A stretch of DNA of 64,000 nt from Megalonaias nervosa (Eukaryota; Mollusca; Bivalvia; Unionida; Unionidae): positions 17,519-81,518 of the forward strand of contig JAECUM010004367.1 in NCBI GenBank assembly GCA_016617855.1. The letters are read 5' to 3'. Under the pieces are notes generated by a model, which worked only from the letters and a program-made list of their open reading frames with translations, was not told where the DNA came from and ran no database searches. The translations under genes and the position numbers were made by a program. Below, one piece after another: positions 6,527 to 54,062 of the stretch; the stretch's first letter is position 1, and every line of letters starts with the position of its first letter.

Positions 6527-6694
6527 TACCATCAATAATGTCCTTGGGATCAAAAATTGACTTCAGCAAGTTTGAGACCCAGGGGGTGGACATCACACCT
6601 TACTTCAGCAAGGCTGAACTGGAACAGCTGTCTGACTATGAGAAGAAGAGATATGAAAACATAAAGCGCAACTATGACATGATGATTGCATTTG
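6527..6694 (+). CDS. PRDM9: PRDM9-like exon 1: KRAB-related domain
   Basis: The exon follows the acceptor TTTTTATTTCAG and ends at G|GTAACT (phase 1). After Met at 6538 it codes for a KRAB-related domain with the core DITPYFSKAELEQLSDYEKK and then RYENIKRNY, matching the PRDM9/SSX type of KRAB box (D-I-x-x-Y-F-x-x-E-W; K-R-N-Y) rather than the classic KZNF KRAB. The usual Trp after the acidic residue is Leu here (AELEQL). In mammals this domain mediates protein contacts (for example CXXC1, EWSR1) in meiotic cells. The 11 bases before the ATG are in frame with no stop, so an upstream coding exon remains possible. Confidence 0.88.
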
Positions 6695-9399: not shown

Positions 9400-9440
<41 letters not shown>

Positions 9441-12400
9441 GTGTGTGTGTATTATAATGTGGTTGGTAATATAGAGTGAAATGTGTCACTAGTAGCCCCT
9501 GATGGGAAAAGGCAAAACTGGTTGTTGCAAATGGGTCACCTTTTAAAGCTTGTTTTTTTAAACCCTTTAGCTACGACTACCACATCTAAGCGTCACCTGT
9601 AAATAGCTCCTGAACCCCACTGACGCATATATGCAGTGTCGATAAGCCTAGTTTACTACCCCAGTGTCGCTTGTGTGCGTGTAGTTCTGCAGTACTCAAA
9701 ACCCCAGTGTCGCATCACTGCGGACGTGACCGCTATGTTAACTAAACGTTGATTGGTTGAAAGTACAGATGTTTACATATTTTTCATTATCATAACCAAT
9801 GAGAGGACTGGTTACTGAACATTTTGATACAAGTTTGAAAGCTGAGAGGTTAAATTTTAGACATGCGGAAAGGGATTTCCTGCAATGTACGAAAGACGTG
9901 TAGTTGAGATAAACAAAAATGGATTCCGATTCAGATATGAGCGACTTTGAAGGGTTCAATGCAAGCGATATTGAAAAGTTTAATGGATCATTCTTAGAAA
10001 ATGGATCAGATATTGATGTTAGTCCTGTTTCAACACTAGATGTATGTGATTTTGAATCAGATGACGAGGATTTATTTTGTGGGATTCAAAACAGTTTACG
10101 TGACTGGGATTTCTTATATGATGGGATGTAGGAGTAAATAAAGTGGAAGTATATGAATAACAGACACTATATAAGGTAAGCTGCATTTTATTTCACTGAA
10201 ATCCAGCTAAAACTAATGAAATAATGAATATAAATGTAACCATGTTTTTATTGTCAGTTTCTGTAGTCAGCCATGATGATGCTTTAGTATTCAGCCTAGC
10301 AAACAGCCTCAGTAGTCTCAGTAACTGATACGATATCACTTAGTAGTAGTGAAACTGCACAACAGCTGTAGTAGCTAAAGGGTTAACAAATACCATGCAC
10401 TGAGTACCATTATTATTATTACTTTATCAAGATTTTTATGTGCTCCATACAACAAAATCTTAAGAGTATATGTTGTTCTTTCTGAAATTTTATGTTCCAC
10501 TGGCAAGAAAACCCCAAAACATTGACCTTAGTTCATACTATAAATGCTATATTAGGATTAATCGTTTGTTCAACTTGCCAAGTTCAAAAGGCAGTCGGCT
10601 CATGTGAGAAGCCTGTAATGAACAGTAAATCAGAAAAAACCATTTGTAGGTATTTGTTGTGAACCTTGAACCAAAACATCTGCCTTTCCTGGCACATTTT
10701 GAATCTGGAATGGTTCCAACACTAATGAAAAGGGATGTAACTTGTATTTTTTCATGAAGATGAACTTTTTTCTTCCGAGATTGCTTAATTGACAAGCAAA
10801 TAGATTAAGATGCCTAACTATACCTAGCTGTCACACTGGCACTTAAGGTGTCTTGTATTTCTGCTGTGATGAAACAACCACTTTTATCCCCAACCATCAA
10901 ACAGATTGCTTCAATCCTCTACCTAATAATAAAAATTGCCTTGCTCACAAATTTACTGTACTGTTACCTTGAACTTGCACTGCCAACAGGACTGGAAGTA
11001 CAAGTAGAAGTGTTTGCATATTGATTCATGTGATCTAAAGGCAGAGAGAAACACTTGTTTGGTTAGGAACACCTGGGTGCTGACTGGAAGGCAGGTGACA
11101 TTTGCATGGGAGATTGACTGTGGGGAAATGAGAATGGCCATTCTGAACAGGTGACTTCAAAGTAAAGGTGGCTCTTAGGACAGGTTTGACTAATATGAAT
11201 TAATAAGATGCTCTTCATTGTGTTGTACCACTCAAAATCATCAATATTGTGTTTGGCAGTCTAACTTCACCCATCATCATTAATATTTTTTAATTGCTTT
11301 CTGCTTCAGAAATAAACTTTTGTGACAGTCGTGCTTTTAAATGTAGTTATTCGTAACCAATGCAGTTGAAGTTATCACAATGAATATGGAGTTTACATGT
11401 ATGTAACTGGGAAAAAATAGTTTAAACAGGTACCTGATAATTGATTTTTTTAAGTTTGTTGCATCCGTTGATACAAGGGTGTGGTTTTGCAGGTTTACCA
11501 GCTGTGAAGCCAGAGTTCATGATGGGACCCCGGTCCAGAGCCAGAAAAAGACCCAAGTCTCCTTCAAGCTCAGATGATAGTGATGAAGACTGGACTCCAA
11601 CTATGCATCAGACAAAATTAAAAGGTGAGAATTTATTAGTGAAGGATTGCATTTGCTATTCGTCAACTGAAGGTTGGCTGGTCCAACTCATTGCCCTATG
11701 TTTCGGGCAGATCATGCCATTGCTTACAGTAGATCCCATTATATACGCCCATAAAATTAATGCACCAAGGGAAGTATAAGGGAAAATTATGAAGGCATGT
11801 ATACCTTTAATCTGATAGAGAGGGTCCAAACCATAATTAAATGTCCTGATTACTCGGTGGATTATTATTATTATTTTTTTAATAAAAATGAACGGGGTCT
11901 TGAGTGATCTTTAACAATTGCACAGGTTGCTTTGCTTGGACTATTTGTTCAACTCACACCTCTCCCTCGCTTCTCCTAAACCCATACATGTCTAAACTCT
12001 GGATTGTCCAAAAATAACAGTGTGCTCTGTGTATCAGGTAATGTTTCTTGGTCAAGAGGTTAAAAATAAGTTTCACATTATACTCTATTGCAATAGTCAT
12101 GAGGTAAAAACTATAAATGACTTATCTTCCATTCTTGTTTATTAACATCTTTTATTATATAAAAATGTATAGTATAGGCAGTTTTTGTGAACATGTGCTT
12201 CCAGTCACATGACTGTGACCTTCATGTAGCACCTTTCATCATTTATAAAGGCTGCAATTTCTGTCAACAATTGATAGACTTGATTGGCCTATTTTCTCTG
12301 ACCAGTGATGATCCCAGATTCTTGTAACAGTCATGTGACCATGCTACCTTTTACTTATAAATATTCACTATTATTAAAGAAACACTTTTTATCTTCAGTT

Positions 12401-18400: not shown

Positions 18401-21400
18401 CGCGAACTTAGGGGAAGCTACTACGTCATAACATTGCCTATGCTAGTCTGGTTCTCTGTTTCGTATGCTCCATATAGCGGAGTTCAATGCAGGGAGCATA
18501 CCAAACAGGGAACCAGACTATGCCTATGCTCGAAGTATACACAGTGCCATCCCTCATCCAAAGCATTGGATATTAAATAAATCTTGATTGCATTTTGCAA
18601 ATCCTTTGCATCAGAAAAACGCACAAATGTGCGAAAAGGGAAACACTGCAGATTCTTGTGAATAAGAGCTGGAAAGGACACAATTATGTTTATTGAATAT
18701 CATGTGCCAATATGAGCATGTCTCGTGGCGGGAGATATGATTGTCGTCGTCATGTGAAATGGATAAAGAATTAGGTCAAGTTGAGAGATAGCAACAAGCC
18801 ATTGAGTTGCATAGAGTTTGAAACTAAAGTTTGTGCAACTGTGGTAAATAAAGTCTACTCGTACTTTCCAAACTTTTCAGTTGAATATAATGTCTATCGT
18901 CGCTGCGTCAAACTTTTACTTATGTTTTACAGCTTTACAATGGCAGTTATTGATATTTTGTTACACCTTACTGAAAATTGGTCAAACTTGCAGAGAAAAA
19001 TGAACTGCCTTACTGAGACGGACTCGTCAGGGTTGGCAGTTCTGATGTGTGTTTAAAATTTTGGGTTCCCGTAAGAAAGCCCCAAATAGCTGATTCCCAT
19101 ATTAGTTTATCTTCAGATACTGGCTGATGAGAGTGATGACAACAGTGATTTTTGAAGTACAAAGGATATTAGAATATTGGAGCTGGGAAGGTGTTAATGG
19201 AGATATTAGTGAATGACTTTGAGCCAGAAAATGGTGTTAAATATGAGTCTGATGTACATAATGGATGGACAAGAATAGACGGCATTCTGGTCAAACTCTT
19301 TTTCAGTGCTATTTTGAAATTAAATCTAGAAAAGGTAGAATACAGGCATGAAGACAATTTAAAGTAGTGTGATTTTCATTTCTTTTCTCAAACAATTTAG
19401 CTCTGCGGGATCTTGTGCTACAAAAGTGTATAGCCCTATAAGGGTTATAAAAGAAAAAAAAACAAATGAAATTAACAAATAAAGATATTTATCTGATCAA
19501 ACAATACATTTTTCTCTGAACAAGGAAACTGGCATTGATGGACTTAAAAACCCTAATAAAAACATACTGGAACGGATGAGAAATCTGGCATAGTAAAGCA
19601 GATTCAAGAAAGTAAAATATGGGCAAGGCTTACATTACTGAAAACTTCAATTTGGATCAAGAAGTATCCAAAAGATAACATTGAGCTGTGGAAAATTGTA
19701 CATAACAGTCATAAAGAATTGTTGTTTCCCATGTAATGTTCAAGCTGGCTAAGCTAGTTATGTATATGCCCTTTCAGACAGCAGACTGACAACTACCATT
19801 CTCACAACCAGTTCAGTAACTATTTATCAAGATTTTATGAAAATTGATCCCAGTACAAGTAGTACTTCAGATGAAGATGAACATAATGTCTGAGTTTCAA
19901 ATGATTCCTCATAAAAGGCTTGTTTTGCCATCTATTGCACATATTTCAAATTCATGCATGGGGAAATCAAGAACTATGCCATGAAATTAATGGGGAGTTT
20001 CCATTTCATTGGGCAATTACATATTTCAATTCCCTGTGTCAGCTTGACAATAAATTGTTTGCACTGGGCCTTGAAAACCATCACTGATAACTCTCCAAGT
20101 TGTGAAAAAAAATGTTTGAATAGCAAGGTATTTCTTTGTTAAGGAGTTGAATTTTTTTTTATTTCATTATGATGTAACATTAATCTGGTGTTTTTATTGT
20201 TCAGAACAAATTACTAACCATGTTGTTTGCTGTGGCACTGGTTTGGTTTGGATTTTGTCTGTTTCTGTTTATAGTTGAATGTAAATCATGCAATCTAACC
20301 ATTCTGAAATTGAAAGCTTTAACTCTCACCAAGCCACTAAAACTGAAATTGATTGTGTTGCCATGTTTTCTAGCATGAAATAGTTCATGCGATACAACGG
20401 ATCCATATTGTTTTAAACTTGTGCATAAGCATAGCCTTTCTCAAAAATATTCATTCACTTGCTGTTAACATTTTAATATCATTCATTGAATTTTGGATGT
20501 TTTCAACATTGTCTGAGTCTTGCAAGTTCTTTTTTTGGAAGTTGAATCATTTGTAAATATTTGTGTTAGAAGTGTTTCCCAGATAACATTACAGTAGGGT
20601 AGATATGGTTGTATATAGCATTTGTAGTATATTAACCTATGTTTAGTTGATAAATGTGGCCTTATCTTGCTAAATGTCCACAGCCTATGAATCGTTATGG
20701 GATGTGGGGTCCCTCCACCTCAAAGGCAATTAATCCTTTATGCCTCCATGGAAAACTGGACCCTTGATCCATCATAGAGCTGATGCTGCAGTTCACTTGT
20801 AAGGTTGCGTCAACTAGGAAGTCATGTCAGTAGCTTATAACATGCATGTCAAAGTTATAAGCCAGTCGATGTTTATACGAGCCTCTTGTTTTCATTTAGG
20901 TCAGTTTGTTATTTTTGCAGTGGAGGTCCTCCAGTGCCATAAACTATTCATCTATTTTGAAACAAGATACACTGTTGAATTATTTTTCCTTTTTAGCTAA
21001 AAAGATGTTGAAGTTTACTATCACATCCAAAGGAACCAATATCTCGCAAGCAAAAAAGAGTTTGAGCACAGAAGGAAAGAAGAATAGTGGATCACTTGAG
21101 GTAGCAATTTTAGCACTGTTAAGATAAAATATATTTCACTGGGCACTTTTCATTTAAATATTGACAGTTGGAGAATTGAGCGTGGTGGAAATGTCAGTGA
21201 AGATCATAACATTAATAGGATGAATCACCAAGAATAACCAGCAGGAGTCAATAGATGGCTATATTTTGCCATATATTTGTACAAGAATCTCAACATACAA
21301 TTCCAGAATTTTGAAAAATTGAATTTTCTACAGCATTTTGTGGAAGTTGATTTGTTTTCTTGTTTATGAATGTCCTATTGACAGTCAATCTTATCCTTGT

Positions 21401-24400
21401 GGATTTTCTTTTATACATCCCCAACCAAATATTGAGGAATCACTCAGAGATGTTACATTTAAACATAAGTAGTAGCCAGGGAAGGCACTATTCAAAAAAT
21501 ATGCTATGGTACTGATTATTTGAACAGTTCATATGAAAATGATAAAGCATTCTAAATTGCATCTAGGGGTGTCTACATTGAAAGTGCCTCCTCTGGATTT
21601 GAAGTATATTTTACTGGAACTGCCCTCATTAGGTCTGTTCATCCAGAGAGATGTCAGGGTACTCCAGTTACTCGCAGTGTGTAGTTTCAACATTTTGTGA
21701 AGAACTTGGCGACATTTCTGCATGCAAAACACTGTCATTAATGTAGACAACATTTAAATTGTCAAGTTGACAAAGTAGGAAAACAATGGTTTTAAAATCT
21801 TGATAAATTCCTTGGATGCAGATTGGAGATCATTTTGCAGGTATGTGAGCAAGTATCTGGCACATTTCAACATATAATGCAAGAAAACTGTATCAAGCTG
21901 ATAGAATCGGAAGCATCTCTGATGTCTAGGGATGGAAACCAACAGTTATTTGTGTTATTGCTGAATTGTCTGTCTCCATTTTGAAGTGATCATGCTGAAT
22001 ATTATAGATTAAAGTTTTTCAATTCAGGACAGAACCATTGGGGGTTGGGGGTCATATAAGAATGTTAGAAGTTCATTTTCATCTTTTCTAAAAGTATGAA
22101 TCTCTTTATCTTGAACAAAAATTTGAAAAAATGCATTTTTTCTTGTAACCTGTTAGTAAGTTAAGTGACTTTTTTTTATATAAACTTAAGCTTGTAACTT
22201 TGTCTAGTCTACAAAACCCAAGGGTCTGAAGTAGTATGCACTCAGTTGGAAATAACAAGTGCATTTTGTCTGCATGGAAATTGACCAGGGTTTTGGGTAC
22301 AAATGGGGATGTTGATTTGAGGAATAAAAGCCTGCACAGCAATACATTTCCACTTGAAGATGCAGCTGTGGATCTGTTATATCTGTTGTGACAGCTACTG
22401 TTTGTACCCTCTTCCCATGCCTCTCCATTTGAGTCATCCTTTAGTTCTTTAACTCCCCCACTTTCACTGCCATAAGTTGCTGTGACTGATCGGTTTTGGT
22501 AGGAATCACCTTGATTAGCATATTGTGAAGACTGCATCAAGCCTCTCGCATGGTGTGCCCAAGTTGATCTGTCTTGTTTATATTTTGAGTGGCAGGGTCA
22601 TTACCAAATAGCAAATCATGATGTCCTGCTGGTCAGAAATGAACTGATATGTGCACCTCAAATTAGGTTTAATACGTTGGTCCTCCCAAATGCTACTCCA
22701 AAATCTGTAAAGGCATTTAAGTGTTTCAACACTACAGGAAGTTATATGAAACAGTCAAAAAGTTTTGATTTTCATGAAAAATTTCCTTACAAGAATTACC
22801 ATTCTTGACCAATAAAGCCTCCAGCTTTCAAGTTTAGAAAAATGATCAAATATGGTCACTGCTACCTCTGCCTTCTCAAAATCTTCTTAACATAATTAGA
22901 CAAAATTAGAAATAATCCTGGCATAATATGGTGCTTTAAAATTTGTACTTGTAATGCCAGTCTATTAAATATGGCTGTCATTGCTAAATATAGAAAATCC
23001 TTATTAAAGTAGCAAAAATCCCAAATATCTTGAATGTGTAAGTTTTTATCACATTCTGATATATGTAAATTAAACATATACTTTAACTGGCTTCAGTGAC
23101 CTTGAGTTTTATGCTAATGTTAATGTACAGTAGCATTATTCAGAATGATTACATTACATTCCCTTGATTAAGGTTATATTTACTTGTATGTGTGACATTA
23201 TTGTATTGTAAGCTGCTCATCCATTACTGTAGAAGGGTATTAATTGCAAATTTCAAATGGAAATGGCAGCTTTTGTGCTGCATATGGTCAGAATTAGCAA
23301 TAAGCAAAATGATTTTTTACCTCAAGTATTTATCCCAGCAATGAATTTTCGAAGAAATATGATGACTTGATAAGAAAAGGAGAGATTAATCCAGCTAAAG
23401 TTACAGATTGACTTGAGTATGGCAAATATATGCAAGTATAGACAAACTACATTTGGAATGCACATTTTATGCACACTAGATGATCAGACTTGATTTTCAT
23501 AAAATTGTAGCACTTAACCAAATTGGTTTAACTTCATGAAACTCTTTGGACTTGAACCTTTTTGTCTGCATGGTTTTACAACCATAAATCTAGTTAAATT
23601 CTTTTGTTTTCAGACAACAAAGAGTAAAAAGTCAACAGAGGTCAAACATCAGTACCCACTCAGAGAAAATCGTGCTACAAATTTTATGGCTTTGGAACCA
23701 CCAGATGATGATCAGTTCCTTTGTATGTATTCTGGGTGTTTTACATTTAAAGAACAATGCCTTATTTTGGTGTGTATAATGGGCACTGCATGATATATAG
23801 TGCACACCCTGATTTTGACCTAGAATGGGTTATAAAAGAAAAAAAAATTCTTAGTTCTGTGTATTATATTACACATGTGGTTAAGACATTTTAAATCTAG
23901 AAAATTTTACTCCATTTTTGTAGTGTGACAGTAGTCATCCATTTTGGATAATGCACTGATTAGCATCTGTTGCATAACATTTGAATTGTTTACAATAAAC
24001 CAGTGCTTAAGTGTTTCTTTGGTCTTTCCTGTCAGTACATGGAACCTAATCGTAACCAATAATTTTGTAAAGATATCGAGAAAAAAATGAAAAACTATAG
24101 GCAGTATTGAAAGTATATCTTTCTGATTTTTGACCCTTAAAAAGGGCTGTTTTAAGGTTAGGGTTGTTGATGGAATTTTGTTTGTTGCAGATTCCACAAA
24201 TTCTCCTTGTCATCATCACTCTAAAAAAGTTGCTGCGTGTTCTTATCTGTCAGTCTTCTCCACTCTCTAGTGGTAAACTCCTTCATTGAACTTCCTTCCA
24301 GAGGTTCTGTAAAAATGTGCTTCTGCATATGCAGTGATGGTTAGTTTGTCTTTCTCAGCATACAAATTTCTTATGTGGCCTGTGTTGACAATTTTCATTC

Positions 24401-27400: not shown

Positions 27401-30400
27401 GATATACCAGAAAATGTGTAGTTTTCTGCTCCTGACTGGTTGTTGATTCAGTGTTCGAGTTATCCATTTACTAAGTACTTTTTCCCATTTCAACCTGGTA
27501 TTTTAAGACATATTTTCTTTCATAATAATGTATGGTCTTACCATACCTTATTTTATGCTTATTTTATTATTTAAATTTATTATTTTGTTTCTGTAGATCT
27601 GAGGCCTAGGGAGCTGCAGAGGCTCAGTGATTAGCATGCAGGACTTGCAATTGGATCACCCACTGTGGTGTATCCTTTGGCAAGGCACTCTACTCAAAAT
27701 GCCTCAGCACCAAATAACCTGCATGTATTTCTGTATCATAAAGCACCAAATATATATCAAAGCCTTCAAAAATACATAATGCTAATATAGCAAACATAAT
27801 TGGTCAAGTCAAATCACTCAATTGTATAATTTTAGAAACTTTAGAAACTTAGGGATCTTTTAATAACATTTTCTGAGAGTTCATCCAAACATCAAGGACA
27901 TGTCGGTGCTCTGCTGTTCCTGTGTGTGCTCTCCATAATAAACCAAGCTGATCCTGGACTAAAAACCTAGCAGATCAACAATGCTAGGGCTGAGACCTCT
28001 TTGGATATCTCATCCCCTTCAACAGTGCTTGATTAGCCCCCATGTCAAAGGTCTGGTCAAGCATAGCAGATGATTTTATGGTCTCATGATAATAATGGAA
28101 GGATACTGGCTCCAGTTTTGGGAATATTGACTTAAGGCAAGGACCACTGTGTTCTTTTGAGAAAAAAATGTATTTCTATCATATTGTATAAAATAAAAGT
28201 TGTTAAATGCATTCTGCAGATTGTGAGGAGTGCAACAAGGAGTATGAAGGGAATTGTCCCGACCATGGTCCCCTAATTGTTGTGGAGGATAATAAGGTAA
28301 ATGCCTTGACATTTAAAGTACAACTATGTGACATCATTGGAAATTCATGTACTAATAAGAGTTTTTATCTAAAGGTTTTAGATATGGGTAAAATAAAATG
28401 TAGAGCTCTACATGGATCATTATGATAGAGATGCCAATCATTCCAATTTTCACAGAATCCTTCCTATTTTTAATGTCAGATGTGTAATTTGACATTAAGA
28501 ATAGGAACGATTCAGTGAAAATTGGAAATGGCGTACATTATGATCAGTTATATCAGGATCTAATTTTTCCAGTGGGATATAATTTTATGCAGGTAAACTG
28601 CAACTTGAACACCAGTATTATATTTATAGCAGAAAAGCTTTGATGTCTGAATGCAGTTCAATTGTGAATGCAGTTTTTTTTCTTTCTTCAGATTCTGATT
28701 TTGATCTTTTGTCATTATGTTTTGATGTCCGTACATGCATGTCAGTTCCATATTTTATTTATGTACTTGTATTCACCAACATCTACTATTGCTAAACTTT
28801 GATGATAGTTTTTACTTGGAATAAGAAAGAAACCTATTGATATTTGATTCCAATGTCAGTGTCACAGACTGATTTCCAGACTATAGCTCTAATTATTCAT
28901 AACTTTTGATCAAATTTGTGGATCACATACACATGTGATAAGAATTTAACTTATAGATTTATGGGGTCAGTGTCAACTGGCTGAAGAAAAAAGAATGGTT
29001 GCTGCATAAATAGCAAATTAAAAAGTTTACAAATAATTTGTTGCTACAAAAAGTGGGTTTAAGTTCTGTACAAAAATTGTTCTTCACTATGTACTTAAAG
29101 CAAAATATGTGGTTGGTTTACACTTTGGGTAAGAAAGAAGTCTATTTCAGATGTTAAGGTCCCTGTAACTGACAGATGTAATGGTTTCTATAGAAGAGCT
29201 TTTGTTTTGAATCACATACCATGAGGGTGTAGAAGAAGTAGGTTGATTTTGAGATCAAAGTGTCAAAGGCTCAAAGAAAGTAAAGTGCTTGTTGCTCATT
29301 AACTTTTGTTCTAGACCAAGTTCTTTGATCAGACTTTGTGGATTTGACTGACTTGTATAAATAGAAACCTATAGTTTTTTGGGTGGGTGGAGTCTTAAGG
29401 TCCAACATCATGATCATGGCAACTAATACAAAAATAATGGTTTCTGCACAGTAAGTTTCGTACAAGACTGCATACCTTTACCAAAGTTCAGGGTCTTTGA
29501 GACCTGTTGGTCATTAATCTAGAGAGTCAACCATGAGCTCTTTGTGCTTACATAGAAGATTATAAAACATTGATAAGGCATATAAAGTGCCATTCCTGGT
29601 ACTCCTGTTTAAAAGTTGAATTCCTATTTTGCTTTAATAGACAGTGGAATCTTGGATGATAAATCAGCGACATTCTCTTTGCAATACTGTAATCCCTCAG
29701 ATAATCATTGTTTATAGAATGGAAAGGACTCCTTGAGCTTTCAGTTGTAATGGGGTTAGAAACTTATTATTTTTAAAAATTGCATGCCCAGAATAAAAAT
29801 TTTCATCATAATCAATGCACAGTTCATAAGGTACATGATGCTAGACAAAGAATTTTTCCACCACTGAGCATGCTTCAGCACAACGATAATTATCCAGATA
29901 ACTTCTTTGTCCTGTTGTAACTGCAGGCTTTTTTGTGATGTACAAAAGTTTTAAAATTGACATGTAAAAATGATCAAGAAACCGAACATAATCCTTGGTT
30001 TTTTTTGGTTTTTTTTTTAAATATTTAGACAAGAGAACAATATTGGAAACTAGGTCAGATAGTCTGATCAAAACATGTAAAATATTTACAACACATTTAA
30101 TGTACAATAATTATTTTTGTAAATACTTGGTCGAGAATATTGCAAGTAGAATCTTGTGTGCAGTGTGGAATAGTTTATCTACAGGTTCCTGATACTTGTA
30201 AGAAAGATCAAGATCGAGCCACACTACCACCAGGCTTAACTATTAAGGAGTCTGGTATCCCTAATGCTGGCCTGGGGGTCTGGGCTGATGTGCAGTTCTC
30301 TAGCAGGACCAGGTTTGGTCCGTATGTTGGTGTCATCACCAAAGATATTGACAAGGTGCATGCAACAGGATATGCCTGGCAGGTAAAACTTAAGTTGTAT

Positions 30401-36400: not shown

Positions 36401-39400
36401 ATCATAAAAGTTGGCAGGTCTGCATAGAGGTTTAAACAAAAATAATGAAATTGGGGATGGGCAAATTTTTATTAGAAAATGGTAAGTGAAGAATACAAAC
36501 AGTAATTGCAATGACACCATGATCAAAAATAGGAAATTTGTCTGTTACAGAAAATAATTAAATATATCAGAAAAAATCAGATTACATATTGTTGAGCTGG
36601 TACATCTGGCTTAGGTCACAGCATCGTCTTTAGCATGTTTACAGCTTGGCATTTCTTGTTTCCTGCACCATCGTAACATGTATTTTGTTCATGAAGTGAG
36701 CTATTTCAATTCATGCAACCATGCATGACCCTATTAGTTATACATAATTGTTACACTTAAAGTGTCCCAGTTTTAATTCACAGACATGTAGATTTATGAT
36801 GTGTTGTCAATGGATGTTGTAAGAGATGTATTTCGAACTGGTTTGACATTTTGATCACACGGCTTGTATACTTGCATCTTAAGTGTATGATGCCTTGTGT
36901 AGTTTGCATTTTATTTGTAATCATTCGTGTGGAAATTTGTAGAATTAATTCTTTAGTGTGTCTCATGTTCTTGGGTCTTCATGTTTAATACAATTATGTC
37001 ACTTTCAGCATAGAATGTTTGATGTTTGATTTTGATTGATCAGTAATTCTTTCTTGCCTGATGATTGCAAGAGCTAAATTTTGATTGGTCAATAATAATA
37101 GTATAAAAGGAAGTCAGTGTTCAAGACCTTTGTCACTCTCCAGTCTTTATGGAAGGTGTGAAGTACAAAATGGCTCAACCAACCTTAAAATCAGATGTGG
37201 CTATGGTAAAAATGCTGAAGTTGTCTGATTCCATTGCATAAAATAACACTAGCAGAGTGTTATTTTGTGACTTTAGTAAAATTACGTGTTTTGGACTTCT
37301 TTTGGAATTTAAATAGAAGGTGAATAACCTACATCTGCATCTGACAACTCTATTTATATTCAGTGCGCCTATAATTTATTATTGTAAATTCACAAAAATG
37401 ATATTAATACTTTATTCCTTTTGTAGAATTTACACTTTTTGTGTGTTTTATTTAATAGAACTTTGTCTTCTGCTTGTGAGCAAACCATTGCACCAAGATG
37501 GGTAATAAATCAGAGGCAGTGAACCAAACATGCTAGGTGCACTCTTGCACCCAAACCTGAAACTGTGAACCAGTACCATAGGCTATGGTGCATCTGCACT
37601 CAGCCTGCACCCAAACCATAAGAACATCGAGCACCAAAGACTATGGTGCACCAACAATAGTAAACCTTGAAGCCAGAATAGGTTTTTTTATTTCTGTTAT
37701 TCCCCTCCTTTTATGAATGAATAAAGAATAAATGAGAACATATTGAACACCAGTAGCTTGCATGACTCAATACTAACTATATTAACCCTGCATATAAGAA
37801 ATGACAAGATACATATGAGTATTTTTAGTCTTTACTGCTAGTTAGTTACTTGACACACTGCATTGTTGTGTACTTGCATGTTTCAGCTCTGCACATCTGT
37901 ATTTAAAAGTACTTATAGTTAGAAAAGCATTTGTAAATCCTTGCTGCTTGCTGGTAGTCATAACTTTAGTTAACAAGCTTTATAAACAAGTTTTTGTTCT
38001 ACTAACAGACTTAGCTTATGCTTACAACACTTTGGATCATAAATGTATTGCATTTCATAATGTTATCTATACATTAGTCATGCTATCATTTCACAAACAT
38101 TTTATGCAAGTCACTTGATTTGTTTGGCTCATCTTTTCTGTTATTAAATGCTGTTACATTTATTTGACGTCTCTGCTCATTAATTGCACCCTTAGAATAA
38201 GATCGTTCTCATAGAATATGATAGTATATCCTCAAGCGAACCAAAGCTGATGACAATACACACCCTTGCTGAATCAATCGCCTGTCCATGAGGGGCTACA
38301 TGACAAAATGTTATGAATTGTCTTTTTACTCCTATTGTATAAAATATATAAATTTTATATCCAGGTTTGTTCATCTCCAACCTTGCCACTGTCCTTTTAC
38401 TGTTTTCTTTCTCTGACGCACTGAAAATCAATAGAGATGGTGTCACACCGAACTTCGGAAAAAAAAGTTATCCCAGTATAACCACTGCAAAATTTGTGTT
38501 TGATCGTTTTTTTTTTTTTTCTTCTTTCAGATCTACAAAGATGGGGTGGCAAGTCACTTCATAGATGCCAGAGACCCTGCCCAGTCTAACTGGATGAGAT
38601 ATATAAATTGTGCAAGGACAGAGGCCGAGCAAAACCTGACAGCTTACCAGTATTATGGTCATATTTACTACAGAGCCTTTAAAACCATAGAACCTGGCAA
38701 AGAGCTGCTGGTGTGGTATGGCAATGAGTATGGACGTGATCTTGGAATTGTCAGAGACACAAAATCATTCTTAAAGCCAAAATATGTCAATGGAGAAGGT
38801 AATTATTTAATTGGTCAGGTCTGAATTTACAAAGAGTCATAAATGTATCATTACAGTAATGAAGTCAGTACTGTGCTGTTGTTGCATCACATTGTAGCAA
38901 CAAAGAAAATAATTTTCTCTTCTTTTGCATGGAGACTTGCTAACCAGTAAAGAATGTTACTTTTATTGAACTGAAAGTAGCATTAAAGTCCAAACAGAAA
39001 ATAGAACTTTTCTAGTAGTAATACAATTATACCTGCTACTGTTGCATTAATTTGCTTTTCTGGGATTCACAGTCTCTCATCCAATTTACATACTTGCTTT
39101 CTCCTATTAGGACTGGAAGATTCTAGAACAGAAAAGAATAATACTGTATCTGAGCCCTTGTAAGGAATGCTATTTTCATTTCCTTAGATGTACACATTAT
39201 GACGTGTATATTTGCCCATTGAAAATTGCCTTTTTTTCTTGGTTTCAAGATGAATGATGGCATTCCACCCATCTTTCTGTTTCAGTTGAATATTAGTTTC
39301 TTCAGTCATTGCAACTTTTTACTTGTTATCTTTGCCTTTCTTTTAAATTTTATGTTTTTTTGCACCTTTCCAGGTCCATGTGTTTTAGTTAATTGTATCC

Positions 39401-45400: not shown

Positions 45401-48333
45401 AAGGGAAGATCACTCTGCCCGACCACCACCTAGGTGGGCAGATAACTTTTAGCTTTTTTTAGCTAAAAGTTTTATCTGGGAGGGCTGGATTTGTGAGGTT
45501 GTAGTTGTAGTTCTAAGGTATTATGATTGGGTAAGTATTCGTGAAGAAACTTATTTTACAAGAAAAAATCTTCAGGTTGACAATAGCAGGACATTATATT
45601 TAGTTACATCTTATTGAAAATAGATCTAACTTCTACAAAAATGCTGACTTCCATACTGTGGTCTTGTTATCTTCAACAGTTCTGTGTTTGCTGTCATCCT
45701 AAGCAAAAGCCACAAGGCAAAACTCGGACAATCATTTTATTTTCTCTTTAGGCTTTAATGCTGCTTTATATTGAATGCAATTAATATTTTTGACTGGTTC
45801 ACTCAACTAATGAGAAAAATCAATGCAAACTTCTACGCACTTTCTTGGAGACTACAATATGATGCAGTTAAAGATGACTTTCTCAATTGGTGTAGCAGTA
45901 CCAATAAAACCAAGTAAAAAGAAATCTGTTCCTGTATGAGGCATGACGTAAAATGGTCTATATAATCTTGATAAATCCTTGAATTGGATGGGTTGTCTTC
46001 TAAAATTTTTGAATTTTGTGGAAAAGCTCCCTGAATTGTTCCCCAAACTTCTTGAATTTATCAGAGGGAATACAGAATGTTTGAAGTTAATAAAATATAT
46101 AATTTGTTACCTTCAGCATTTTTATATTTATTTTAAAACGAATAAAGAAATAAAATAAGACATTTGCCACCTGGAGTAGCATCCCTTTGCTGTAGTGTTG
46201 TGCTCATTTATTCTGTTTTTGACTTTTGCGCTTGCTTCTGCAATGATAAAGCAACATTGATAAAAGTTCAATTTCATTAAGTATAAATACTTCTTGGAAA
46301 CTTTGGAAGTCTTTAAAAAACCTTGAAAAGTTGCTGAAAATCAATCTGGGCCTGTTTGAATCATGAAAAAAATGGATTTGGTAGACATTTTTTAAATAAA
46401 ATAAAGAATAAATGGATTATTTTATTCTTTATAAGTTCTAATTGTCAAACGAAAGACGTAACAACTATTCCAAATGATCATTACAAAAAACAGAAATAAC
46501 TGGAAAGGTCCTGAACAGATATTTGTGTCAGTGTGGGTCTGTCTATCTTGTTAACAAATCATGTGATACTAAGTTAAAGAAACCTAGACCAAAAACGATC
46601 TTAAATTGATTGTTCAGGTTACAAGAAGCAGTTTTTTATTTGTTAGTTACACAATATTGTGTTTAAGTAGAACTATATATTCATGGCTTGTACAGCCTTG
46701 ATACATTCTTAAATTTGAGGGATTGCCTTGAAAATTCATTACATTTTGAAAATGTTGATTTGTCCTTTAAAAACTCTTTTAATTTGCCTGATGGAATATA
46801 AAAGATTAAAACCAAATACAATGTTTCACTTTTTAAAACCCAGAATGTTTACTGTTGATGATTGTTCTGAAACTGTTGACTAAATAAGCAAATAAAATGG
46901 GATAAAATTCTTTGGATCAATGACATGTGAAACATCAGATGGTATTTATATTTGCTGTAGGGTTGCTCTAATTAGATATTTATTTTTGTTGTGTTCTTTG
47001 TTACGTCGATCATACACATTTATGCAGTGATTAAAGAAAATTATTACATGTGGAGAGTTAAATTTATACCAGAGAAATGTACCTTAAAGACTTTAAAAAG
47101 TCTTATAAAACTCCTGAAAAACAACTGGGGGCAGGGATTCCCACAGAATTATCAGGGGAGAATGAAACATGTTTAAAGGTGAAATTTTGGGAAGGGGGGG
47201 GGGCGCTTATGTGCTAAGATATTACTTTCAGTGTCATTAGGACATAATTAAAATTATCTAAGGCTTGAATTGAATTAGCTTCTATTATTACATCATCATT
47301 ATGCCTGCCAGTGGGAGGGATACATTGACACAGTTAAAATCATACAGACTTTCCTTACTTTTTTGTTAGTTTACAACTGGAAGATTATGTGAATCTCGTA
47401 TTTGCCTATTAAATTTTTACTAAATTACTTTTCTGTGTTTCAGAGGTGTACAGCTGTCCTTGGTGCAGACATTCATTCAGCATGGCTGTATTCCTAGCCT
47501 TTCATGTCAAGAGGATTCATGGATGTAAACTGAAGTATGAAGAAATCAGAATGATTGAAATCCTTTTTGCTGCTGTTGAAAACCATTTAGGAGTGAAATT
47601 CAGGGAACAACATGCAAATAATGCTAGGAAAAAAGATCACTTGAAAATTCTCCATGGAGGAAATGTGTTTAATCAGTGTGCTTCTAGAGGTCTTTTTCAT
47701 CAGACCTTGCAGAAAAATTTGAATGAGAAATTTGAACAGGATAATGTTTCAAATTTAGTGAGATGCGATGATACAAGTATTGATAAAAATTTAAATATGA
47801 CAGATGTTAAACACCAACAGAATGCAGAAGAACCTTGCAAATGTGATGTCTGTGGTTATTCAACTTCAAATGCTGGTCATCTGAAGAGACACATGAGAAC
47901 ACACACTGGAGAGAAACCTTACAAATGTGATGTCTGTGGTTATTCTTGTTCACAAGCTGTAAATCTGAAGAGACACATGAGAACACACACTGGAGAGAAA
48001 CCTTACAAATGTGATGTCTGTGGTTATTCAACTTCAAATGCTGGTCATCTGAAGACACACATGAGAACACACACTGGAGAGAAACCTTACAAATGTGATG
48101 TCTGTGGTTATTCAACTTCATATGCTGGTGATCTGAAGACACACATGAGAACACACACTGGAGAGAAACCTTACAAATGTGATGTCTGTGGTTATTCTTG
48201 TTCACAAGCTGCAAGTCTGAAGAGACACATGAGAACACACACTGGAGAGAAACCTTACAAATGTGATGTCTGTGGTTATTCTTGTTCACAAGTTGATAAT
48301 CTGAAGACACACATGAGAACACACAGCGAATAA
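6538..48333 (+). CDS. PRDM9: PRDM9-like histone methyltransferase / zinc-finger protein (whole gene, 8 exons)
   Basis: In vertebrates PRDM9 trimethylates histone H3 on K4 and K36 at sites chosen by its zinc-finger array and so places meiotic recombination hotspots. Here the exons at 6538-6694, 11493-11624, 20997-21100, 23614-23722, 28220-28296, 30185-30382, 38531-38798 and 47444-48333 sum to 1935 nt, exactly 645 codons including the stop. Each junction has AG/GT borders and agreeing phases (1,1,0,1,0,0,1). Domain order: KRAB-related (about 8-53), acidic WTP segment, SSXRD (about 140-165), zinc knuckle (168-190), PR/SET (about 205-335), single C2H2 finger (353-373), six-finger array (480-644). 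This is the complete vertebrate PRDM9 layout. Start chosen: ATG 6538, the first Met in the open frame of the exon. Function in meiosis is inferred from the architecture. Confidence 0.9.
6695..8950. other. Intron 1, left part; nothing recognised
   Basis: No repeat, RNA or coding segment stands out. Short minus-strand frames around 7776-8068 overlap each other in different frames and show no domain. Confidence 0.45.
8955..9225 (-). repeat. tRNA-derived SINE (family 2), copy 1
   Basis: On the minus strand the element starts with a tRNA-like head (AAATGGTCTAAGGTGCTCAC near 9180-9200, then a B-box-like segment near 9130-9145) and ends with a body that reads on the plus strand as GTTGTAGGGTTTAACGCCAT. 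A closely similar, less decayed copy is at 54785-55035, where the head is readable as GTTGCCGAGTGGTCTAAAGC. Pol III-derived SINE; no coding content. Confidence 0.75.
9404..9438. repeat. (TA)n microsatellite
   Basis: Perfect TA dinucleotide repeat within intron 1, followed by a short GTGTGTGT run. Confidence 0.95.
9563..10382. mobile_element. Nonautonomous piggyBac-like element (820 bp)
   Basis: The element is bounded by TTAA at 9559-9562 and 10383-10386, with inverted termini CCCTTTAGCTAC and GTAGCTAAAGGG. TTAA target sites and CCCTT-type ends define piggyBac transposons. Its only frame is the acidic 70-residue ORF at 9919-10131, which resembles the N-terminal leader of a piggyBac transposase; the catalytic part is missing, so it would depend on a transposase supplied elsewhere. 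Confidence 0.85.
9919..10131 (+). CDS. Short acidic ORF in piggyBac element (transposase N-terminus, truncated)
   Basis: A 70-codon frame begins MDSDSDMSDFEGF and is rich in Asp, Glu and Ser, like the acidic N-terminal tail of piggyBac transposases. It ends before any DDD catalytic segment; the flanking sequence then runs to the right terminus. It sits centrally between the two TTAA-flanked ends. I cannot show that it is translated; it may simply be what is left after an internal deletion. Confidence 0.55.
   Translation: MDSDSDMSDFEGFNASDIEKFNGSFLENGSDIDVSPVSTLDVCDFESDDEDLFCGIQNSLRDWDFLYDGM
10387..11492. other. Intron 1, right part; nothing recognised
   Basis: No named repeat, RNA or coding segment. 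The acceptor GTGGTTTTGCAG ends at 11492. Confidence 0.4.
11493..11624 (+). CDS. PRDM9: PRDM9-like exon 2: acidic WTP linker after KRAB
   Basis: The exon lies between GTTTTGCAG and AAAG|GTGAGA, phase 1 at both ends. It codes for GLPAVKPEFM, a basic run (RSRARKRPK), and then SSDDSDEDWTP, the conserved segment that follows KRAB in PRDM9 (human DSDEEWTP). The G-L-x-A-x-x-P-x-F-M opening also matches the vertebrate exon. The basic run could serve as a nuclear localisation signal, which is inference. Exon boundaries and phase agree with the KRAB exon. Confidence 0.9.
11625..14182. other. Intron 2, left part; nothing recognised
   Basis: AT-rich sequence. A 22-codon frame behind an AG at 12780 was considered as an exon and rejected (poor acceptor and donor, wrong phase). 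A poly-A run lies near 13820. Confidence 0.4.
14183..14857. mobile_element. TIR family 'CAGACCTGCCAAC', copy 1
   Basis: The left end is CAGACCTGCCAAC and the right end is GTTGGCAGGTCT (final G lost). The interior is collinear with the copies at 17046, 31403 and 32781, including the shared subterminal TGCCTTACCGAGATGGTCTTG. The 147-codon minus-strand frame inside (14356-14799) is not shared as a frame by the other copies and is probably fortuitous. The target duplication is unclear for this copy. Confidence 0.75.
14858..16940. other. Intron 2, middle; nothing recognised
   Basis: No repeat or coding segment that I can name. Short overlapping frames at 16522-16819 on both strands are shadows of each other. 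Confidence 0.4.
16941..17042 (+). repeat. Dispersed repeat fragment (inverted partner at 56100)
   Basis: The segment around TGGTTGTTAAACTAAATTTG is the reverse complement of 56101-56195 with scattered mismatches over about 95 bp. Class unknown. Confidence 0.7.
17427..18648. mobile_element. hAT-like insertion inside TIR element copy 2
   Basis: Comparison with the uninterrupted copies shows that 17427-18648 splits the sequence CAGATTCTTGTG. The ends read CAGTGTATCCC and GGGAAACACTG, hAT-style short inverted termini, and CAGATT is repeated on both sides (6 bp, or 8 bp if two bases were lost on the left). A Mutator-like MITE is nested inside it. No intact transposase frame is present. Confidence 0.7.
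18444..18520. mobile_element. Mutator-like MITE, 77 bp, perfect 9-bp target duplication
   Basis: Palindromic element with ends TAGTCTGGTTCTCTGTTT and AAACAGGGAACCAGACTA, flanked on both sides by TGCCTATGC. It is the same family as 1782-1879. Confidence 0.85.
19045..20996. other. Intron 2, right part; possible decayed coding traces
   Basis: Segments near 19110-19140 and 19845-19890 read as short acidic Asp/Ser/Glu-rich peptides in one frame, as in transposase leaders, but stops prevent any family call. The intron ends with the strong acceptor TTTTTCCTTTTTAG at 20996. Confidence 0.3.
20997..21100 (+). CDS. PRDM9: PRDM9-like exon 3: basic linker
   Basis: The exon sits behind a long pyrimidine tract and ends at CTTGAG|GTAGCA; it enters at phase 1 and leaves at phase 0, fitting its neighbours on both sides. 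It codes for a Lys/Ser-rich linker (KKMLKFTITSKG, then QAKKSLSTEGKK) without a named domain. In vertebrates this region between the WTP segment and SSXRD is also poorly conserved. The call rests on splice signals, phase and position rather than on homology. Confidence 0.7.
21436..21630. mobile_element. Decayed Harbinger-like MITE
   Basis: The sequence is a degraded relative of the MITE at 55331-55517: it shares ACATTTAAACATA, CCAGGGAAGGCA, AAATTGCATCTA and the terminal TGGAACTGCCC. Its left end is badly worn. Confidence 0.65.
21631..23613. other. Intron 3; no feature supported
   Basis: The longest frame (22106-22540, minus, 144 codons) has no domain I recognise and no flanking splice or repeat context. 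The acceptor for exon 4 (CTTTTGTTTTCAG) ends at 23613. Confidence 0.4.
23614..23722 (+). CDS. PRDM9: PRDM9-like exon 4: SSXRD motif
   Basis: The exon starts after CTTTTGTTTTCAG at phase 0 and ends at CTTT|GTATGT at phase 1. It codes for TKSKKSTEVKHQYPLRENRA, followed by a short acidic tail ending in DDDQFL. This is the SSX repression domain pattern of PRDM9 (K-x-Y-S-L-R-E-R-K, then DDDYLYC). In SSX proteins SSXRD mediates repression and chromatin association. The split Tyr codon at the end is completed by exon 5 to give the LYC start of the zinc knuckle, which independently supports the splice call. Confidence 0.9.
23723..27055. other. Intron 4, left part; nothing recognised
   Basis: AT-rich with several homopolymer runs (24660-24700 is an A/T-rich simple tract). 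No named element. Confidence 0.4.
27060..27135 (+). repeat. Possible tRNA-derived SINE head (decayed)
   Basis: The order AATAGGTCAGTTGGCAGAGG, TTTTAATTCAAGGGTC, then a worn B-box region resembles a tRNA with a TTTTAAT anticodon loop (Lys-like). Boxes are too mutated for a functional tRNA. Confidence 0.4.
27605..27745 (+). repeat. Probable tRNA-derived SINE fragment
   Basis: A tRNA-like head (GGCTCAGTGATTAGCATGCA) is followed by CTTTGGCAAGGCACTCTACT and TGCCTCAGCACC, the kind of central segment found downstream of the B box in many animal SINEs. Boundaries are uncertain. Confidence 0.5.
28220..28296 (+). CDS. PRDM9: PRDM9-like exon 5: zinc knuckle before SET
   Basis: The exon lies between CATTCTGCAG and AATAAG|GTAAAT (phase 1 in, phase 0 out). 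With the split Tyr codon it reads YCEECNKEYEGNCPDHGP, a C-x2-C ... C-x2-H zinc knuckle matching vertebrate PRDM9 (YCEMCQ ... CAAHGP). In crystal structures this knuckle packs against the PR/SET domain. All four metal ligands are present. Confidence 0.92.
28427..28535. mobile_element. Mutator-like MITE, 109 bp hairpin with perfect 9-bp target duplication
   Basis: Nearly the whole element folds back on itself: GCCAATCATTCCAATTTTCA near the left end pairs with TGAAAATTGGAAATGGC near the right end, and AATGTCA pairs with TGACATT at the tip. CATTATGAT occurs on both sides (28418-28426 and 28536-28544). It sits 130 bp past exon 5. Its termini differ from the TAGTCTGG family. Confidence 0.8.
28545..30184. 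other. Intron 5; nothing recognised
   Basis: No repeat or gene I can name. The acceptor TTATCTACAG ends at 30184. Confidence 0.4.
30185..30382 (+). CDS. PRDM9: PRDM9-like exon 6: PR/SET domain, N-terminal half
   Basis: Phase 0 at both ends, donor CAG|GTAAAA. The exon codes for TLPPGLTIKESGIPNAGLGV and then RFGPYVGVITKD, the start of the PRDM9 PR/SET domain (vertebrate SLPPGLRI...SGIPQAGLGVW...FGPYEG). The GLGVW stretch forms part of the S-adenosylmethionine pocket in SET proteins. The Tyr of FGPY (residue 240 here) corresponds to Tyr276 of human PRDM9, one of three residues needed for full activity. Confidence 0.94.
30383..31402. other. Intron 6, left part
   Basis: Near 30650 a TA-flanked CAGTTAAACCCCTC segment resembles a pogo-type terminus, and 33905-33935 (GTGAGGGGTTTCACTTTACT) could be a matching opposite terminus from the same family, but the interval between them holds two other elements and I could not establish one element. 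Confidence 0.35.
31403..32194. mobile_element. TIR family 'CAGACCTGCCAAC', copy 3 (best preserved, 792 bp)
   Basis: Left end CAGACCTGCCAACCCTTA and right end TCAGGGTTGGCAGGTCTG are long inverted termini; the 6-bp direct repeat AGTTTG flanks both sides exactly. The interior matches copy 2 once the nested insertion there is removed, and copy 4 at 32781. No transposase was recognised, so this is a nonautonomous element. Confidence 0.85.
32195..32780. other. Spacer between two copies of the same TIR family
   Basis: A plus-strand stretch near 32435-32510 reads as an acidic peptide (ADDESDEYNAE) before stops; origin unknown. Confidence 0.3.
32781..33586. mobile_element. TIR family 'CAGACCTGCCAAC', copy 4
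   Basis: Left end CAGACCTGCCAACCCTTATG, right end worn (GGCAGGCAGGTATG). Flanks AATTTC and ATTTTC give a 6-bp duplication with one mismatch. Collinear with copy 3 only 590 bp away, in the same orientation. Confidence 0.8.
33587..35743. other. Intron 6, middle; nothing recognised
   Basis: No coding or named repeat content. Confidence 0.4.
35744..36422. mobile_element. Divergent relative of the 'CAGACCTGCCA' TIR family
   Basis: Left end CAGACCTGCCACTTATCC and right end AAAAGTTGGCAGGTCTG are inverted, but the interior is not alignable by eye with copies 1-4 and no clear target duplication is visible. An internal GGTGGCAGGTCTG (36167-36179) may be a second terminus from a nested or chimeric copy. 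Confidence 0.5.
36423..38530. other. Intron 6, right part; nothing recognised
   Basis: A poly-pyrimidine stretch with the strong acceptor TTTTTTCTTCTTTCAG ends at 38530. Confidence 0.45.
38531..38798 (+). CDS. PRDM9: PRDM9-like exon 7: PR/SET domain, catalytic half
   Basis: Phase 0 in, phase 1 out (GAAG|GTAATT). The exon contains the SET signature NWMRYINCAR (vertebrate NWMRYVNCAR), EQNLTAYQY, GHIYYRAF and KELLVWYGNEYGRDLGI. Tyr306 (IYYR) and Tyr322 (VWYG) correspond to Tyr341 and Tyr357 of human PRDM9; with Tyr240 in exon 6 the active-site trio is complete and their spacing (66 and 16) is almost that of human (65 and 16). The NCAR segment carries the cofactor-binding Asn-Cys pair. Active H3K4/H3K36 methyltransferase is therefore predicted, not shown. 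Confidence 0.95.
38799..39875. other. Intron 7, left part; nothing recognised
   Basis: A 100-codon frame at 39538-39840 (+) has no domain I know and overlaps an opposite-strand frame. Confidence 0.35.
39876..40048 (-). repeat. Inverted repeat arm 1
   Basis: About 170 bp are the reverse complement of 40810-40982 with a few mismatches; shared anchors are CCATGGCCATGGCTGTATTGG here and its complement at 40835. On the minus strand both arms can be read as MAMDKECLN ... FRRQEEDA, so the arms derive from one coding sequence of unknown family. Confidence 0.8.
40810..40982 (+). repeat. Inverted repeat arm 2
   Basis: Partner of 39876-40048, separated by about 760 bp. The peptide MAMDKECLN ... SFRRQEEDA is readable on the plus strand. 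Family not recognised; a gag-like segment of the nearby DIRS relic is one possibility. Confidence 0.8.
41147..42596 (+). mobile_element. Internally deleted piggyBac element, copy 1
   Basis: TTAA at 41147-41150 is followed by CCCTTTCAACACTG; the right end reads CAC/AGTGGTGAAAGGG + TTAA (42593-42596). Between them is a piggyBac transposase remnant: an acidic leader starting near 41430 (MADSPDDESELSGDE), then YFQLFYSD-like, a LMEVMKFDRDELYW segment and IMSRDRFFQVKHYLHFSDD, all from the N-terminal half of DDE_Tnp_1_7. After HKILPW the sequence jumps to the 3' noncoding end, so the catalytic Asp residues are missing. Several frameshifts and a stop after RECIQQE are present. Confidence 0.85.
41431..42146 (+). 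pseudogene. piggyBac transposase fragment (N-terminal half)
   Basis: The best frame piece is 41892-42146, reading KFDRDELYWNKSEKFWL and IMSRDRFFQVKHYLHFSDD, diagnostic of the DDE_Tnp_1_7 family. Upstream pieces lie in other frames. Compared with the usual roughly 550-600 residues, less than half is left. It cannot encode an active transposase. Confidence 0.8.
42640..45440 (+). pseudogene. DIRS-type retrotransposon relic (gag-like, RT, RNase H, distal pol)
   Basis: In order on the plus strand: a gag-like stretch (AANLKLVECEALLSTS, near 43010); a reverse transcriptase region with VYQFQALPFGFDISPWGF (43878-43935) followed by a LDDILQ box in place of the usual YLDD; GFLINKDKSDLV near 44085; an RNase H start with SVWMQVQK/GGHTY near 44460 and QGGTKAPDFCILAWDFLKWC near 44685; HGHLHAIADSLNWD near 44785; and DLFVIRWNTKLPTFVS near 44905. 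The QFQALPFG and DLFATRxNHKLPLFVSP patterns are typical of DIRS-like elements. The frame changes many times and has stops throughout. The tyrosine recombinase itself is not readable; termini were not found. Confidence 0.75.
45440..45477. repeat. Short perfect-looking hairpin at the end of the DIRS relic
   Basis: AGATAAcTTTTAGCT is followed after a T-rich loop by AGCTAAAAGTTTTATCT, a stem of about 16 bp. It lies directly after the last DIRS-like peptide. Confidence 0.6.
45480..47443. other. Intron 7, right part; possible diverged tandem duplication
   Basis: Blocks at about 45990-46350 and 46720-47140 share a similar order of motifs (CTTGAATTT..., TTGCTGTAG.GTTG, CTTTAAAAAAcCTTGAAAAG-like) and may be old duplicates, but the similarity is weak by eye. 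The acceptor TTTTCTGTGTTTCAG ends at 47443. Confidence 0.3.
47444..48333 (+). CDS. PRDM9: PRDM9-like exon 8: isolated finger and six-finger tandem C2H2 array
   Basis: Enters at phase 1 after TTTCTGTGTTTCAG and ends with TAA at 48331. It begins EVYSCPWCRHSF, a single C2H2 finger (C-x2-C-x12-H-x4-H) that also precedes the array in vertebrate PRDM9. After about 110 residues without known domains come six fingers with TGEKPYKCDVCGYS linkers, starting at Cys codons 47836, 47920, 48004, 48088, 48172 and 48256. Helix residues -1,2,3,6 are NGHR, QVNR, NGHT, YGDT, QASR and QDNT. Outside these positions and one T/C alternation the fingers are almost identical in DNA. The array decides the DNA target. 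The last finger ends HSE and stop instead of a new linker. Confidence 0.95.
47833..48330 (+). repeat. PRDM9: 84-bp minisatellite encoding the C2H2 finger array (6 units)
   Basis: Six head-to-tail 84-bp units; the segment from CTGAAGA(G/C)ACACATGAGAA through TGTGATGTCTGTGGTTATTC is invariant apart from single changes. This homogeneity at synonymous sites together with variable contact codons indicates gene conversion or unequal exchange between units. Confidence 0.95.
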
Positions 48334-48490
48334 AAACCCAGTTGCAGTTTGGATATTCGTCTGCCAAGGATGGTAATCCTAAGAAAAACAGAGAACACTG
48401 CGAGTGGTGGGAGATTCCTCATAAATGTGAAACCTGATTATTCAGTGTTTTAAAGCAGGTGACCTGAATAATATACACATGAGAAAAAGG
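48334..48490 (+). pseudogene. Two decayed C2H2 finger units directly after the stop codon
   Basis: The sequence continues the array in worn form. Unit 7: TTTGGATATTCGTCTGCCAA then GGTAATCCTAAGAAAAACAG and GAGAACAC align with GTCTGTGGTTATTC ... GGTAATCTGAAGACACACATG AGAACAC, and read FGYSSAKDGNPKKNREH in a shifted frame. Unit 8: GGAGATTCCTCATAAATGTG, GATTATTCAG, GCAGGTGACCTGAATAATAT and ACACATGAGA align with a whole finger. The stop at 48331 arose in the former linker (GGAGAGAAA-type to GCGAATAAA). Confidence 0.8.
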
Positions 48491-53569: not shown

Positions 53570-54062
53570 GCTTAATGTCTAGAGAAACAACTGAAGACAC
53601 ACAGTGGAGACCAAGATAGATAAAATTTACAAACATGAAATCTATCATTAGAATTTATTTGCACAATTGGGACATTACTTGGAAGATGCAATAGCATGCA
53701 TATTGGAGAGAAAACTTACAAGCGTAATGTCTATGGTTGCTCACTTTAAAATGTTTATTTAAAGAAACATCCGAGAATTATACAGTGTTGAGATGAAGAG
53801 GGAAAAACATCGAACAAAATGTGAGGCATTGATTAAAATTCATGTTCACAAGAGTGCACTGTAGATGCACCTGAGAAATTATAGTGCAGAGAAACTATGT
53901 GATACATCTGTGGTTATTCATATCCACATGCAGACTGTTAATTTGAAGACACATCAAATGAGAACACATTGCAGCAGGCATAAACCATATATATGTGCTG
54001 TCATTCTTCATGAGTGCAAGCTGGTGATATGAAGACACATGAGAACATATTGGAGAATAACT
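53570..54062 (+). pseudogene. Decayed C2H2 finger array, about five to six units
   Basis: Repeated traces of the exon 8 finger unit: GGAGAGAAAACTTACAAGCG and TAATGTCTATGGTTG (53713-53745); ATCTGTGGTTATTCATATCC, then GTTAATTTGAAGACACATCA and ATGAGAACACAT (53907-53970); AAACCATATATATGTGCTGT, TGCAAGCTGGTGATATGAAG and ACACATGAGAACATATTGGA (53979-54055). Frames are broken by stops and indels throughout. Closest match is the PRDM9-like array itself. Confidence 0.8.

Follow-up and report, generated by a model that had tools for sequence, protein, structure and literature searches.

Complete PRDM9 genes outside the vertebrates are already on record. In the parts of their paper that we draw on, Oliver et al. 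2009 describe Prdm9 with concerted finger evolution in the snail Lottia, the polychaete Capitella and the sea anemone Nematostella, and they find positive selection in Nematostella at finger positions -1, 3 and 6, in Capitella at a single codon. They also report germline Prdm9 transcripts in sea urchin and snail and, as a general statement that does not go through the species one by one, find the KRAB-SET-finger layout kept in many, not all, Prdm9 proteins (PMC2779102). A KRAB study from 2022 places ancestral KRAB domains in invertebrates such as sea urchin, in the sections relevant here (PMC8835667), and the portion of a further paper that we consulted mentions PRDM9 only as a mammalian example (PMC11577847). 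The role in hotspot choice is established for mammalian PRDM9, according to the excerpts of Baker et al. used here (PMC5519329); our limited search of partial texts found no PRDM9-dependent hotspot map in any non-vertebrate.

Public proteins named PRDM9-like come from molluscs, echinoderms, nemerteans, cnidarians and a sponge. For the PRDM9 gene described here, 167 homologues were found and 120 listed; by protein name, 58 of the listed proteins are vertebrate and 62 non-vertebrate, with P0074, P0075 and P0086 counted among the latter. None of the 120 is near-identical to our protein, and the best-covered relatives are molluscan. We scored KRAB and SSXRD as present at E below 1e-3 with either of two profiles, vertebrate or non-vertebrate, in a 63-sequence set. 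On this basis the complete set (KRAB-related region, SSXRD, zinc knuckle and at least four tandem fingers) occurs in 25 of the 62 non-vertebrate homologues among those listed. The non-vertebrate profiles were built partly from proteins that were then scored with them; with vertebrate-only profiles, 24 of the 25 still pass and Hydra fails. Molluscs, nemerteans and cnidarians are among the sources of the complete proteins, as are a starfish, amphioxus and a sponge; one source has no name. The remaining non-vertebrate homologues lack at least one feature, and their available gene models may be incomplete. Given the genes of Oliver et al. 2009 and these 25 homologues, we regard the gene reported here as a further case of a known type. 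The preliminary description of this DNA had implied that a full-length PRDM9 in an invertebrate would be a surprise, an implication that does not hold; the gene is instead a good new example.

The window, by which we mean the whole 64,000-nucleotide stretch of Megalonaias nervosa DNA that was analysed, ends where its contig ends. The gene lies on its + strand and runs from an ATG at 6538 to a stop codon ending at 48333, in agreement with the preliminary description (Table 1). Seven exons (E1, E2 and E4 to E8) are secure, with AG/GT consensus borders and compatible phases, and sum to 1831 nt; they have open frames, good splice sites and no visible lesion. As E2 leaves in phase 1 and E4 enters at phase 0, an eighth exon is needed between them, and one of 101 or 104 nt fits a total of 644 codons. 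Of the original model of eight phase-compatible exons and 644 codons, seven exons and the need for an eighth thus stand, and the location of E3 is tentative. The interval in Table 1 has the top splice score among 19 candidates of matching length. A profile of the molluscan linker gave no match there, leaving E3 without homology support, and since it was chosen using the earlier codon count we treat it as a guess. Upstream of E1, the acceptor-like sequence TTTATTTCAG ends 11 bases before the ATG, which makes an upstream non-coding exon likely.

Table 1. Features of the PRDM9 gene and its surroundings, in window coordinates.
Feature	Positions	Strand	Content and basis
Exon 1 coding (E1)	6538..6694	+	start codon and KRAB-related region; profile search, splice sites and phase
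Exon 2 (E2)	11493..11624	+	conserved PEFM...SDEDWTP, C-terminal to KRAB in PRDM9
Exon 3, tentative (E3)	20997..21100	+	lysine-rich linker; in phase 1, out phase 0; splice score and length
Exon 4 (E4)	23614..23722	+	SSXRD (YPLRENR...PPDDDQFL)
Exon 5 (E5)	28220..28296	+	zinc knuckle (YCEECNKEYEGNCPDHGP); PF18445
Exon 6 (E6)	30185..30382	+	PR/SET first half; tyrosine equivalent to human Y276
Exon 7 (E7)	38531..38798	+	PR/SET second half; tyrosines equivalent to human Y341 and Y357
Exon 8 (E8)	47444..48333	+	lone post-SET C2H2 finger, linker, terminal array, stop codon
Six-finger tandem C2H2 array	47831..48325	+	84-base units, in exon 8
Decayed finger units, about 2.5	53838..54047	+	5.5 kb past the stop codon; self-comparison

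The Pfam KRAB and SSXRD models gave no match in the window gene, although deer PRDM9 was matched in the same run, and neither domain was among the 25 of 29 families listed for a Pfam search with the full protein. We therefore built our own vertebrate and non-vertebrate profiles, and for the same reason consider 'KRAB-related' the right wording. The search space for these profiles was the 2894 open stretches of 15 residues or more on both strands, in all six frames of the window. The vertebrate-only PRDM9 KRAB profile had E1 as its sole significant match in this set (E 1.7e-13, runner-up 0.45), and the vertebrate-only SSXRD profile identified E4 (E 8.4e-4, runner-up 0.97); the non-vertebrate profiles gave 1.6e-19 for E1 and 8.9e-12 for E4. 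E2 matched a vertebrate profile extending from KRAB to EWTP (E 4.5e-6). The zinc knuckle model PF18445 scored 26.5 bits on a fragment, above its cut-off of 25.8, and 23.0 bits on the full protein, under it. Judged by these matches, the predicted protein carries a KRAB-related N-terminal domain, an SSXRD and a knuckle ahead of its PR/SET domain, as members of the PRDM9 family do.

Among solved structures, those of PRDM9 are closest to the PR/SET domain: E lies between 7e-55 and 5e-50 for human and mouse PRDM9, compared with 3e-26 for PRDM11. A further comparison gave 168-180 bits for PRDM9 structures and 95 for PRDM11, and overall the PRDM9 structures outscore PRDM11 by 73-94 bits. Across knuckle and SET, 81 of 168 aligned residues are identical to human PRDM9. 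The alignment places tyrosines at all three positions equivalent to human Y276, Y341 and Y357, the catalytic residues examined by Baker et al. in the passages used here (PMC5519329).

We built two trees. Input to the quick tree was 61 of the 120 listed homologues, from which Aplysia was lost (short match); with the window gene and six stretches from solved structures it had 67 rows. It placed the window gene among molluscs, with no starred branch containing it. The careful tree used the knuckle and PR/SET in 47 rows, after exclusion of 20 long or redundant rows that included Vanessa, Dysidea, Clavelina, Frankliniella, a second Gigantopelta protein and PRDM1. Here the window gene shared a starred group with 20 molluscs and a brachiopod, in a tree where the molluscs do not form one clade. 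In AU tests, holding the window gene together with the molluscs was not rejected (p 0.44), grouping it with PRDM11 was (p 0.0012), as was grouping it with vertebrate PRDM9 plus PRDM11 (p 0.03), and grouping it with PRDM12/14 was disfavored, with a log-likelihood 14.7 lower, and formally not rejected (p 0.088). PRDM11 shares the layout of zinc knuckle and PR domain with the window gene, and its SET domain does not group with it; an identity as PRDM11 is rejected. We conclude that the PR/SET sequence groups with PRDM9 rather than with other PRDMs, with the p of 0.088 for PRDM12/14 borne in mind. The SET phylogeny that the preliminary description had proposed as a check thus came out among molluscan PRDM9. 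The domains it had listed (KRAB-related, SSXRD, knuckle, PR/SET and terminal C2H2) are all present, and its reading of a complete PRDM9 in a non-vertebrate is borne out by the vertebrate-only profiles and the tree.

Across the genome (2.19 Gb in 54,709 contigs), a search for PR domains gave 16 matches. Eight were fetched as loci; the other eight comprise six off the window contig that were left unfetched and two additional pieces on contigs already represented by L001 and L002. Close identity marks a single one of the eight fetched loci as PRDM9, the one on the window's contig. The nearest class is PRDM14 for L002 and PRDM1 for L003, and L004-L007 reach at most 45% identity to the PRDM9 rows compared. 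L008 (C53013:51786-51923) is a 49-residue piece of a PR domain in a short exon; it has 53% identity to the window's exon and, over 43 residues, 60% to Gigantopelta PRDM9, and there is a similar match at C29166:2160-2297.

The last coding exon ends in a terminal tandem C2H2 array whose diversity is concentrated at the DNA-contact residues. Measured from the first cysteine through the last histidine (63 bases), the six live fingers are 84-98% identical in DNA, and 15 of 21 finger positions show no amino-acid variation. Positions -1, 2, 3 and 6 carry 76% of the amino-acid diversity among the fingers, a share reached by only 2 of 5985 four-position choices, namely this set itself and one tie. Pairwise differences at -1, 3 and 6 are 45 nonsynonymous and 0 synonymous; at -1, 2, 3 and 6 they are 58 and 7, and at the other 17 positions 23 and 9. 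In the excerpts drawn on here, Baker et al. consider dN/dS tests problematic under gene conversion (PMC5519329), and we take the contact-site diversity of six fingers from one allele as a signature rather than a formal test. The Baker-type proportion at -1, 3 and 6 is 0.57 for the five fingers that fit Baker's finger pattern, compared with medians from the same script of 0.405 in 38 non-vertebrate and 0.39 in 35 vertebrate homologues, all with at least four tandem fingers. Baker et al. give 0.687 for human and 0.910 for mouse, for a position set that may not be -1, 3 and 6 (PMC5519329, in part).

Set against its relatives, the gene shares with the molluscan PRDM9-like proteins of Gigantopelta (P0004), Solemya (P0002), Ostrea (P0005) and Mytilus (P0015) the N-terminal half, the knuckle, the PR/SET domain and the terminal fingers. 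Gigantopelta is nearest by tree path, with a SET domain 70% identical over 171 columns, and has 14 fingers in tandem. The window fingers read CDVCGYS(T/C)S, similar to the CDECGYS of Pinctada (P0059) and unlike the CGKxF of Gigantopelta and Ostrea. With the Prdm9 genes of Lottia, Capitella and Nematostella, as presented in the material we used, the gene has in common that it is a non-vertebrate PRDM9 with concerted finger evolution, and its six fingers compare with listed counts of 23 in Lottia and 11 in Capitella (PMC2779102); the array is a short one. Domain order and the three catalytic tyrosines are those of human and mouse PRDM9, and the KRAB and SSXRD differ in lying under Pfam detection.

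What might such a gene do? Mammalian PRDM9 acts in hotspot choice, and the window gene is known from its sequence alone. We consider it probable that this is an orthologue with the complete domain set, its seven secure exons free of lesions, which acts by analogy as mammalian PRDM9 does; it looks like a working, turning-over PRDM9. On the mammalian analogy, the fingers would recognize a particular DNA motif early in meiosis, and neighboring nucleosomes would receive H3K4me3 and H3K36me3 from the PR/SET domain. The KRAB-related/SSXRD half would recruit the break machinery, leading to double-strand breaks at the motif. Gonad expression, DNA binding, methylation and hotspot choice by this protein are all inferred by that analogy, and the preliminary description had likewise marked the recombination role as inferred. 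Several observations count against it: E3 lacks homology, Pfam does not recognize KRAB or SSXRD, the array is short, and related finger units are dead here.

The strongest competing explanation, which we consider unlikely and yet worth keeping in view, is a complete orthologue of PRDM9 without a part in directing recombination in this lineage; it would work in the germline as an H3K4 methyltransferase or a transcription factor, and hotspots would lie at promoters. It would account for our limited search of partial texts finding no recombination role outside vertebrates. It would also fit the swordtail, where a testis-expressed partial PRDM9 does not direct recombination according to the sections of Baker et al. 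2017 used here (PMC5519329). In the parts of a Mulinia study that we draw on, Prdm9 is high in the blastula, a stage that is not obviously meiotic, which counts against a purely meiotic role (PMC10451705). Against this stands the vertebrate pattern described in the same excerpts of Baker et al. 2017, where rapid finger evolution goes with complete architecture (PMC5519329); the window gene combines that architecture with the tyrosines and with a proportion at contact sites that is high. Oyster Prdm9, moreover, is biased toward the male gonad: in the part of that study consulted, the mature male gonad has high levels of Prdm9 and Zcwpw2, the mature female gonad very low ones (PMC12111275).

Beyond the gene lies a stretch of dead fingers. 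The decayed units in Table 1 share about 69% identity with the live fingers (E 4e-14), and each of the three frames contains stops. Compared with the live array alone they score 70.7 bits; the maximum in 60 shuffles of the stretch is 26.5. Weaker finger pieces carry the relic to 53556, for about six units' length overall. Two origins may be considered for the relic: the end of a formerly longer array, since cast off, or a copy of exon 8 that has decayed. Since the window contains no second match to the 5' part of exon 8, we lean, provisionally, toward the former. Directly after the stop codon, an alignment of the live fingers ran on into 48338-48485 (+ strand) at 76% overall identity; tested alone, this interval did not match the live array, and its reading as possibly an older finger remnant is unsupported.

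Repeats are also present. An ~895-base repeat, 95% identical between its copies at 41702-42596 (intron 7) and 51727-52621 (downstream, between gene and relic), is probably a recently mobile element. Members of a second family, 77-85% identical, occupy 17046-19046 and 31399-33591, in the introns before E4 and after E6. On the - strand, open frames at 56665-57150, 59024-59419 and 60488-61066 look like a large DNA mobile element: they include a match to an A32-type packaging ATPase (PF04665, E 1.5e-5), a helicase C-terminus match too weak to pass the cut-off, and a polymerase-like frame with no Pfam match. By eye, the frames resemble those of a Maverick/adintovirus-like element.

The relic, the short array and an E3 that the linker profile did not confirm could together suggest a recently dying PRDM9 that is losing its array. 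We consider this improbable: frames stay open and splice sites good across the seven secure exons, the catalytic residues are kept, and the live fingers are 84-98% alike compared with about 69% for the decayed ones, from which we infer that the live array has stayed homogenized since the decay. That another PRDM class, or an unrelated assembly of KRAB-like, SET and finger parts, has been misread as PRDM9 can be set aside as extremely improbable, since the knuckle-PR layout common to PRDM11 and the formally unrejected PRDM12/14 grouping are outweighed by the structure scores, the AU rejection of PRDM11 and the KRAB-related and SSXRD exons in their expected order.

Returning to the working PRDM9 that we prefer, we propose tentatively, and with rather less than even confidence, that a turning-over, six-finger PRDM9 directs hotspots in this lophotrochozoan, and that the dead units downstream are the trace of a longer array. 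Concerted evolution would hold the live fingers alike, and dead ones would drift once outside the reading frame. If true, PRDM9-directed recombination would occur in a protostome, and array turnover would be readable from DNA. In the passages of Baker et al. that we draw on, the complete domain set marks recombination-directing PRDM9 in vertebrates (PMC5519329). With complete non-vertebrate genes that keep their catalytic residues intact and show the same signature at contact sites, one can test how old PRDM9-directed recombination is, in animals open to breeding or population sequencing. To these many genes the window adds one clean case, whose modest extra value lies in a clean gene, a contact-site signature and a relic.
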